From: Vulcanimicrobiota bacterium
GTDB taxonomy: Bacteria > Vulcanimicrobiota > Xenobia > Xenobiales > JADMJV01
Length of the DNA stretch: 64,000 nt
Assembly: GCA_019637395.1 (NCBI GenBank)
Contig: JAHBVR010000010.1
Span: forward strand, 1-64,000
Direction of reading: 5' to 3'
Translations under genes and position numbers: made by a program
The notes under the pieces: model-generated
What the model saw: only the letters and a program-made list of their open reading frames with translations
What the model was told of the DNA's origin: nothing
Database searches by the model: none
Part shown: positions 27,700 to 30,548 of the stretch, piece after piece
How positions within the stretch are numbered: position 1 is the stretch's first letter
Layout of the letters: each line of letters opens with the position of its first letter

Positions 27700-27835
27700 G
27701 CCGATCCTCTTAAGCTGAGGTCATGGCAATCAAGTCTCTGCAGGTTTGCTCCGAGGAGAATGCGGCTGGCGCAGCGCACCGCGATTCCTTCCCACTGACG
27801 ATGACCTGGACTCCCTTGCCCTGGGCTGCCACTGG

Positions 27836-28549
27836 ATGAGCCGGATTTCCAACTTCCTGGTCCGGCCGCTGGAGAGCCTGGTAGAAGCCAGGGGCAAAGT
27901 GACGCCAGGCAATTTCTGCGCCCACGCTCCTCTGCGCGGCAGCCTGGAGATCCGATTGGTGGACGAGCTAAAAACGCCCCTGACCTGCATCGCCACCATG
28001 ACCGAGTTGTTGCAGCACAAAGGTGAGGTGCTCAGGCCGGAACGCCGGAAACGGGCCTGGGAGGTCATCGGTCGAGAAATCACTCGAATGGACCAGGTGC
28101 TGCACGACCTTCTCACGCTCTCTCGCCTGGACCAGCCCGCCCGAGACGTGGTCGACCTGGCCGGAGAGTTGCTCTCCGTTTTAGAGAGCTACCCGCGCGT
28201 GTCGCTACGGGGCGAGTTGGCCCCAGGCGTGATTTTCGGCAATGCCGCCGGCTGGACTCGCAGCCTGCGCAACCTGTTCGACAACGCTCTGGCGCACACC
28301 CTGCAACGCCAGAGAGCGGGATACGAATTGAAAGTGGAGGATCGAGGATGCGGTATACCCCGGGAAGATCTGAACAAAGTCAGGCAGTGTTTCTTTCGCT
28401 CGGAACGGTCGCGCAGCCGGCACCTGGGCGGAACGGGATTGGGCCTGTCGATGGTGGCGGCCTGGGTGCGGCGGGCCGGCGGGAAATTGGAGCTGGAGAG
28501 CCAAGTGGAGCAGGGAACCTGCGTAAAGATTTGGATACCCGCTCGATGA
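27836..28549 (+). CDS. Histidine-kinase-like protein with Asp in place of the phospho-His
   Basis: The 237-residue soluble protein has an H-box region, an N-box (NLFDNALAHT), a G1 box (DRGCGIPRE) and a G2 box (GGTGLGLSM). In the H-box, the expected SHELRTPL reads VDELKTPL, with Asp43 (codon 27962-27964, GAC) at the His position; a single C-to-G change from CAC would produce it. No sensor or membrane domain is present. It could bind ATP but should not autophosphorylate in the usual way. The ATGA overlap couples it to the response-regulator gene. The upstream open frame continues to 27746 but shows no start with a good ribosome site. Confidence 0.8.
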   Translation: MSRISNFLVRPLESLVEARGKVTPGNFCAHAPLRGSLEIRLVDELKTPLTCIATMTELLQHKGEVLRPERRKRAWEVIGREITRMDQVLHDLLTLSRLDQPARDVVDLAGELLSVLESYPRVSLRGELAPGVIFGNAAGWTRSLRNLFDNALAHTLQRQRAGYELKVEDRGCGIPREDLNKVRQCFFRSERSRSRHLGGTGLGLSMVAAWVRRAGGKLELESQVEQGTCVKIWIPAR

Positions 28550-29214
28550 AGCCTTATAAGATTCTGGTAGCCGACGATGATGACTCGATTCGCGACTCAT
28601 TGGAAACGGTCTTTGAACTCGAGGGCTACGAGGTGGCCCTGGCCGCCGACGGCCGCCAGGCGATGCAACTCTTTGACGGTAACATCGATCTCTTGATTCT
28701 GGACTGGATGATGCCTCTGATGGACGGTATCCAGGTCTGTCAGGAAGTGCGCCGGGTGAGCCAGGTTCCCATCTTGATGCTAACGGCCCGGGGCGACCTG
28801 GATGATAAAATCACCGGCCTGGATACGGGCGCCGACGACTATCTGCCCAAACCGTTCAAGACCAAGGAATTGCTGGCCCGGGTGCGGGCCCAGTTGCGGC
28901 GCAGCCGAGCTTTCTCCAAAGAGCAGCTGGAATTCGGTTCGTTGGTGCTGGAGCCGACCTCGCGCTCGGCCCGCTGGCAAGATCAGCAGATCTTTCTGAC
29001 CGCTCTGGAGTTTCAACTGCTGCAGTTCCTGGTGCAGAATCCCGGCCAGGTCTTTTCCAAGGAGCAATTGCTCAACCATGTCTGGGGCTGGCACGAAGCG
29101 GCCAATCTGAACGTGGTCGAGGTGCACGTCTCGAGCCTGCGCCAGAAGCTGGGGGAAGGCGCCAAAAATTTGATCCGCACCGTCCGAGGATTGGGCTACA
29201 GCCTCGGAATTTAG
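28546..29214 (+). CDS. OmpR/PhoB-family response regulator
   Basis: The 222-residue protein has a receiver domain with acidic pocket DDDD near residue 10, phospho-acceptor Asp in LLILDWMMP, and Lys in LPKPF, then a C-terminal winged-helix domain (FLTALEFQLLQFLVQNPGQVFSKEQLLNHVWG, then VVEVHVSSLRQKL and IRTVRGLGYSL). It is a DNA-binding regulator. Its cognate kinase, encoded upstream with an ATGA overlap, lacks the phospho-His, so phosphate may come from another kinase or small-molecule donor. Confidence 0.9.
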   Translation: MKPYKILVADDDDSIRDSLETVFELEGYEVALAADGRQAMQLFDGNIDLLILDWMMPLMDGIQVCQEVRRVSQVPILMLTARGDLDDKITGLDTGADDYLPKPFKTKELLARVRAQLRRSRAFSKEQLEFGSLVLEPTSRSARWQDQQIFLTALEFQLLQFLVQNPGQVFSKEQLLNHVWGWHEAANLNVVEVHVSSLRQKLGEGAKNLIRTVRGLGYSLGI

Positions 29215-29307: not shown

Positions 29308-30066
29308 ATGGTTACTCAACAGATGCGCGGGCTGAGTCCCGTGCACGCGCCCAGACCTTCAAAACCCGCCCGCCCTGCGCCACCGGCCGGGCCCGACCGG
29401 GCCGAAATCGGTAACTCCGTGAGTGGGGGTATCAAATTCGCGACGCTGGCGGGGCTGTGCTTGATGGCCGGCACATCGCTGGTTCAGGCGCAGGTCGCGC
29501 CCCAACCCACCAATCTGGTTTCCCAGCTCGAGAGTGAGGTCACTTTGAGTGATCAACTCAGCGAGGCCGCCCAGCAACGGAGAATCTCCCTCCAATTCGA
29601 AGTGCGTCCTCCCAATCGGCCGCCCGTCTCGATCACACCCTGGCATGCCGAGAAAATCATGGCCGAAGCCGGCACGGTGGTGGTCACCGAGGTCAAAGAC
29701 GGCCAGTTTGACCGCGCCGCCTACCTGACCGACACCACCGATCTGGTGGCTTATCTCAACTACATGAAAACGGATACGGCTGAAAATGAGGAAGAAGCCG
29801 GAGCGGTATCCCTGCGGGCCTTCTTCCATCTGGTTCCGAACACTCAGATCGTCCATCCTCGAACACAAGAAAGCCTGTCGCCCTTTACGGCGGCGCGGCT
29901 GCTGAAGGAAGAGAAACCCCTGTTGCTGCGCATGGATGGTGCTCCCGAGAAGCAATTCAACAACTTGCGGGAACTGCAGCGCGAAGTGAGCACCGAGGCC
30001 GCGCCTGGATGCACCCTGACCGATACCATCGGGCCCGGTAAGCCAGGGGTATACTGCTTCAACTGA
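29308..30066 (+). CDS. Uncharacterised exported protein
   Basis: The 252-residue product starts at ATG 29308, after AAAGGGGG; an upstream ATG at 29269 lacks a site. A long N-terminal segment rich in Pro and Ala precedes a hydrophobic stretch (IKFATLAGLCLMAGTSLVQAQ) at about residues 44-64. The rest is mostly alpha/beta with a conserved-looking FHLVPNTQIVHPRTQ, and a single Cys pair near the C-terminus. Not recognised. It overlaps the next gene by TGATG. Confidence 0.6.
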   Translation: MVTQQMRGLSPVHAPRPSKPARPAPPAGPDRAEIGNSVSGGIKFATLAGLCLMAGTSLVQAQVAPQPTNLVSQLESEVTLSDQLSEAAQQRRISLQFEVRPPNRPPVSITPWHAEKIMAEAGTVVVTEVKDGQFDRAAYLTDTTDLVAYLNYMKTDTAENEEEAGAVSLRAFFHLVPNTQIVHPRTQESLSPFTAARLLKEEKPLLLRMDGAPEKQFNNLRELQREVSTEAAPGCTLTDTIGPGKPGVYCFN

Positions 30067-30548
30067 TGAGGCTACCGAAGATCTGGACGGCTCTCTTGCT
30101 GGCGCTCGCAGTGGGCAACTTGATGGCTTCCGAGCTGGGCTTGCAGATCGTGGTCGCTCTGCTGGGCATCCTCATCTTGCCCATTCCTGTGGGAATAGCC
30201 ACTGACAACTTGGCGCGCACCCTGCTGGCGGTGATTTCTCCCTTCGTGTTCGTCATGGCCGTGGCCAGCCTGGCGATATGGCTCGGGCCGACCGTTTTTG
30301 AAGAGTCCTCCCGCGGTGTGGCCATAGCTCTGATGCAGATCCTGCCGGTGGCCACCAGCAACGCTCTCTGCCCACCCCCCTACCGGCTATCCATCCTGAC
30401 GGCGCAAACCATCTGGGTCTGGTTTGTGGCCGCACTATTTCTAGCCAGAGGCTATGTAACACTCCCCTGGGCGCTGCTCATCGCCCTGGTCGGGCCGATG
30501 ATCTTCCTGATGACCGCCGTCGTCGGGAGAGTCAGGCCTGCCAAGTAG
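30066..30548 (+). CDS. Uncharacterised membrane protein
   Basis: The 160-residue protein has about four or five hydrophobic segments (first IWTALLLALAVGNLMAS, then LQIVVALLGILILPIPVG, FVFVMAVASLAIWL and a C-terminal pair) separated by short loops. It does not match a family I know. It overlaps the preceding gene by one base and ends exactly where the convergent Rossmann gene ends. Confidence 0.6.
   Translation: MRLPKIWTALLLALAVGNLMASELGLQIVVALLGILILPIPVGIATDNLARTLLAVISPFVFVMAVASLAIWLGPTVFEESSRGVAIALMQILPVATSNALCPPPYRLSILTAQTIWVWFVAALFLARGYVTLPWALLIALVGPMIFLMTAVVGRVRPAK

Follow-up and report, generated by a model that had tools for sequence, protein, structure and literature searches.

Does a histidine kinase gene with aspartate at its phosphoacceptor position, lying next to an intact response regulator, encode a new kind of signalling enzyme? 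The question is raised by one locus in a 64,000-nucleotide stretch of DNA from a Vulcanimicrobiota bacterium (the window; genome G000). The Asp of the original prediction, encoded by GAC within the H-box VDELKTPL, was borne out by the sequence, as was the neighbouring OmpR-type regulator with all of its receiver residues. Comparison with the same locus in related species points to an answer: very probably, an ordinary membrane-bound HisKA sensor kinase, the partner of the OmpR-type regulator, was recently inactivated in this lineage by several deletions, with the Asp at one of the junctions. The features of the locus are as follows.

27723-27839, + strand: leader ORF of 38 codons (MAIKSLQVCSEENAAGAAHRD...), from its reading frame and DNA alignment with the orthologous loci L009 and L010
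27836-28549, + strand: remnant histidine kinase ORF of 237 codons, comprising the end of the second membrane segment (TM2), the first HAMP helix, a truncated HisKA domain and a damaged HATPase_c domain
27962-27964, + strand: GAC (Asp) at the phosphoacceptor position, from the sequence reading and alignment
28546-29214, + strand: intact OmpR/PhoB-type response regulator of 222 amino acids, with its ATG overlapping the kinase stop codon (ATGA)

The kinase remnant and its regulator

The 237-codon frame contains no internal stop, and the ATP-binding motifs are readable in it (N box NLFDNALAHT, G1 DRGCGIP and G2 GGTGLGL). These boxes had been described as intact; the motifs are indeed present, but the ATP-binding part around them lacks nine residues between N and G1, and the F-box Arg is Cys. 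Pfam matches to the remnant comprise HisKA at 44.8 bits, starting at profile position 9 of 66 (1-2 in the orthologues), and HATPase_c at 67.7 bits, compared with 88-93 in the orthologues; no Pfam match to HAMP was obtained in the window kinase. Measured against an active HisKA kinase, the remnant has Asp instead of the phosphoaccepting His in the H-box, a HisKA helix hairpin from which 26 codons are deleted and an incomplete HATPase_c fold around the N, G1, F and G2 boxes, and its sensor and membrane segments are missing as a result of 55- and ~450-bp deletions.

The regulator gives full-length Pfam matches to Response_reg and Trans_reg_C. Its translation shows the acidic pocket, Asp, Thr and Lys of a receiver followed by a winged-helix output domain. 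It is 96% identical to the G001 orthologue and 92% to that of G003, and with ω ∼0.02 it is under strong purifying selection. A tree of regulators took in six of 23 loci; from it, only the clustering of the four regulators that belong to loci of this type was used.

Orthologues at the same locus

Across 38 related genomes, this kinase was identified in two further species of the genus, with core identities of 74% (G001) and 69% (G003), as well as a 47% relative in G004 and a 47% paralogue in the same genome as the window (C9). Beyond G001, a further scan of contigs for the kinase returned two matches, both to unrelated kinases. The window kinase and its two orthologues form one clade (support 99/99), in which the window sequence is sister to G001 (91/89). 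The orthologues are full length (473 and 478 amino acids), with two membrane segments, a sensor, HAMP, His in the sequence ADASHELKTPL and a full ATPase core, all of which the window copy has lost in whole or in part. The absence of a sensor domain from the window kinase was thus correctly noted, but it reflects deletion relative to the orthologues and not the original architecture. Asp is likewise not fixed in the clade: both same-genus, same-locus orthologues have His, an observation that the original prediction had named as one that would refute it.

The orthologues in G001 and G003 are transmembrane HisKA-family kinases, each paired with an OmpR/PhoB-type regulator. All three loci have one gene order in common (symporter, kinase, regulator, secreted protein and a convergent 590-amino-acid gene), along with the ATGA overlap between kinase and regulator. 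An ABC transporter pair is inserted at the locus in G001 only. A 160-amino-acid ORF rich in membrane segments (30066-30548) separates the convergent gene from the secreted-protein gene in the window and is absent from that place in G001 and G003. A small conserved ORF of 28 codons lies upstream of the intact kinases (L045:6757-6843, MATTLFTTNFCQQLVAVQPYRVTPVRAR; L043:6044-6130, MQATVFINNFCQQLVVLKPYRVTPVRAQ) and overlaps their GTG start codon.

Deletions and the origin of the Asp codon

Alignment of the window DNA with the two orthologues (L009 and L010) gave the following deletions.

Near 27732/27733, + strand: 61-bp deletion in the small upstream ORF, relative to both orthologues
27815-27816, + strand: junction of a 55-bp deletion in the first membrane segment, with a frameshift, from alignment with the two orthologues
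27844-27845, + strand: junction of a ~450-bp deletion of the sensor domain and most of the second membrane segment, from the DNA alignment
27961-27963, + strand: junction (GTGG/ACGAG) of a 78-bp in-frame deletion of 26 codons, spanning the second HAMP helix and the start of the phosphoacceptor helix
28299-28300, + strand: junction of a 27-bp deletion; the nine residues lost belong to the last part of the N-box helix and to a core ATPase strand, half of which is missing

Set against the intact orthologues of this locus, the gene has four internal deletions, one of which shifts the frame, and one upstream, which is the pattern of a pseudogene. The ~450-, 78- and 27-bp deletions are all in frame. 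Since two species have intact copies with the usual domain order, as do more distant paralogues, the differences are deletions in the window lineage rather than insertions elsewhere. The upstream deletion breaks the 28-codon ORF, leaving a cut remnant at 27723; the leader ORF consists of the start of this small ORF fused to the former N-terminus of the kinase.

The 78-bp junction falls inside the codon for the phosphoacceptor. With a single deletion, GAC is a hybrid in which the left flank supplies the G and the His codon (CAC) the AC. In an alternative event, deletions of 24 and 54 bp associated with short direct repeats would make GAC the HAMP-end Asp of MVDEL; the two models are not separable, with 63 of 80 (single 78-bp deletion) and 64 of 80 (24 + 54 bp) matches to L009. 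On this alignment the Asp arose at a deletion junction, and under either the one- or the two-deletion model there was no His-to-Asp substitution. A point mutation from CAC to GAC is rejected, since the junction lies within that codon. Of the three options first proposed, a recent mutation alone fits, in the form of a set of deletions and not of the CAC-to-GAC substitution.

The ancestral kinase would accordingly have had two membrane segments, a sensor, HAMP, HisKA with His and a HATPase domain, and would have been paired with the OmpR-type regulator; deletions would then have removed the sensor, the phosphoacceptor and part of the ATPase core. Having no means of sensing, no phosphoacceptor and a damaged ATPase core, the remnant should not autophosphorylate.

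State of the remnant

Of the 65-69 sites conserved in all eight intact relatives, the remnant departs at 7-10 and each intact orthologue at 3-4; among the changes in the remnant (numbered by alignment column) are S354C, G546E and, in the F box, R506C. AF2 models were built from comparably shallow alignments and serve as a paired comparison only: the core pLDDT is 75 for the intact kinase and 55 for the remnant, a value too poor for a fold search, and it falls below 50 over remnant residues 152-162 and 168-200. The strand E184-191, which is well predicted in the intact model, shrinks to four residues in the remnant model.

In a codon model, ω averages 0.15 on the window branch and 0.09 on the others, a difference that is not significant, and ω = 1 over the entire window branch is rejected (lnL -1631.93 versus -1628.91). 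Timing on this branch is weak, with synonymous sites near saturation and the locus present in this form in three species only. When 10, 20 and 60 neutral substitutions were simulated, 68, 44 and 11% of runs, respectively, kept an open frame. Fully neutral evolution since the species split is ruled out by the codon model and, if many substitutions accrued, by the open frame. Together, the rejection of ω = 1 and the open frame imply either that inactivation was recent or that the frame is held open in some other way or some selection persists. A kinase inactivated not long ago is the reading that suits the remnant best. Its rate of change is unlike that of an old pseudogene.

One way in which the frame could be held open is solely as a translational coupler, with ribosomes having to reach 28549 in order to start the regulator. 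This proposal adds to decay by deletion and does not exclude it; it is a reasonable possibility, although it falls somewhat short of being probable. Translation of the regulator is probably coupled to the end of the kinase frame: the ATGA overlap is common to the window and both orthologues, and no clear Shine-Dalgarno sequence was seen before the regulator ATG in the sequence of any of these loci. The leader ORF, whose ATG at 27723 is preceded by GAGG, ends in a TGA that overlaps the remnant ATG at 27836 (again ATGA), which would complete an unbroken chain. Under coupling, in-frame deletions survive and stop codons do not, and the deletions inside the remnant frame are indeed multiples of three; coupling would thus explain why the frame stays open. 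However, the simulations leave the frame open by chance in 68-44% of runs after 10-20 neutral substitutions, so that selection is not needed if inactivation was recent.

Candidate substitute kinase

Most likely, the regulator receives its phosphate from another kinase. Within the genome, the closest intact one is the C9 paralogue (C9:64029-65543; L044:6030-7544), which has no adjacent OmpR-type regulator and is thus an orphan; its gene overlaps the end of a Ser/Thr protein kinase gene, an arrangement also found in G001 (L046). Six positions equivalent to the EnvZ specificity residues 250, 251, 254, 255, 257 and 258 (PMC2991266) were compared. They read TSTMEL in the C9 orphan, identical to the G001 orthologue of the window kinase and matching the intact kinases at all six, while the next best of the 94 HisKA matches in the genome, the remnant excluded, agrees at three. 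In G004, an orphan-type kinase 61% identical to the C9 protein adjoins a regulator 76% identical to that of the window. A tested precedent exists in ChrSA/HrrSA, where a paralogous kinase cross-phosphorylates the regulator after loss of its own kinase (PMC9491836). These similarities make the C9 orphan the best candidate, and it may have taken over phosphorylation of the regulator.

The same paralogue enters into a different proposal, namely that the deletions created a short, soluble, membrane-free pseudokinase that docks on the regulator or heterodimerizes with the C9 orphan and so resets the output of the pathway, as ChrS does with HrrS. Such a newly arisen natural counterpart of ChrS is improbable here. 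The open frame and the average ω of 0.15 are consistent with it, as are the retention of ELKT and of the specificity face (TCTMEL in the remnant, TSTMEL in the intact kinases), the existence of a paralogue with the same face and the ChrS precedent in Corynebacterium glutamicum (PMC9491836). However, the nine-residue deletion damages the ATPase core, the dimer helix has lost its beginning to the 26-residue deletion, conserved sites show excess change, model confidence is low and no relative of the same form was found. A strong phosphatase is also unlikely: replacement of His by Ala in HK853 diminished its phosphatase activity (PMC5727384), and because the phospho-His itself contributes to that activity a residual phosphatase role for the remnant becomes less likely. 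The suggestions of a phosphatase-like or allosteric partner or of an ATP-binding pseudokinase find no support in a protein that has lost its sensor, both membrane segments, the HAMP end, part of the ATPase core and the opening turns of the phosphoacceptor helix, and whose Asp is not fixed in the clade.

An assembly or sequencing artefact is very unlikely even in a draft genome of 36 contigs, since several separate deletions of 27-450 bp in a continuous locus that otherwise aligns well, diverges normally and is flanked by intact genes are an untypical error pattern.

Other HisKA boxes that lack His

An H-box without His is uncommon in this genome but not unique. At the phosphoacceptor position, His is missing from five of its 94 HisKA matches, and two of the five score below the cut-off of the family; three boxes of the AHDFNN type have His and are outside this count. 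Those below the cut-off are SFDLRAPL in a receiver-HisKA protein (C7:202699-202878; L143) and NNILATIL in a kinase-receiver protein (C1:517296-517427; L144). SQPFRNSM occurs in a fusion of Ser/Thr kinase, HisKA and receiver (C31:206761-206934; L142).

A further case is a 351-amino-acid kinase with the box NQQLRTPI (C35:48296-49348; L174:4297-5349), which comprises PAS, HisKA and HATPase_c domains and has complete ATP-binding boxes. It lies directly downstream of a PhoB/YycF-type regulator (L174:3601-4293), the best NCBIfam match of which is YycF, below the cut-off of that family. Within the class, 14 genomes yielded this kinase (the other loci being L165-L173, L175, L176, L185 and L191), and in every one of them it lacks His; the position is occupied by Gln in the genus and by Arg, Gln or Glu elsewhere in the class. 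The N, G1 and G2 motifs are retained in the 12 orthologues aligned, and the neighbouring regulator shares 99.6-100% identity among members of the genus and 71-96% in the remaining genomes of the class. The 14 sequences form one group (support 88/82), with a single loss of His on the tree. In genomes outside the class, the orthologue occupying this operon position carries His, and in most cases a second His-bearing kinase follows it; the apparent relative of this second kinase in G001 lies elsewhere (G001:C32), and a candidate in G000 is at C4:204454.

Judged from sequence, the C35-type kinase is a conserved pseudo-histidine kinase, being full length, with ATP motifs kept and His lost class-wide. 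The window gene contrasts with it in full length, ATP motifs and fixation in the clade: a conserved regulatory pseudokinase (DivL/ChrS-like) would share its loss of His throughout a clade and otherwise keep its sequence, whereas both same-genus orthologues of the window gene have His.

Comparison with known systems and significance

DivL carries Tyr at the His position. The DivL-type pseudo-histidine kinases of Caulobacter resemble the remnant in lacking a phospho-His while retaining readable ATP-binding motifs, but they are long-conserved, full-length proteins with a demonstrated signalling role (PMC5361649, PMC4211667), whereas the window contains one damaged gene from one genome. The ChrS pseudokinase, produced by a frameshift in the CA domain, is closer in being a kinase inactivated by an indel, with an intact adjoining regulator and a paralogue available for cross-phosphorylation; that variant was, however, selected in laboratory evolution and tested (PMC9491836), whereas for the remnant function is deduced, and its sensor and His are lost too.

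The window gene is thus probably a decaying kinase, itself inactive, beside a healthy regulator, and not a new kind of signalling enzyme. A degenerate motif from one genome can mimic a new catalytic type and yet be a deletion junction, a matter that alignment within the genus settles. The class-wide C35 type, which lacks a phospho-His, is a more interesting case than the window gene. If the orphan kinase did take over the regulator, the locus would represent a natural two-component operon losing its own kinase, with a paralogue keeping the pathway alive.
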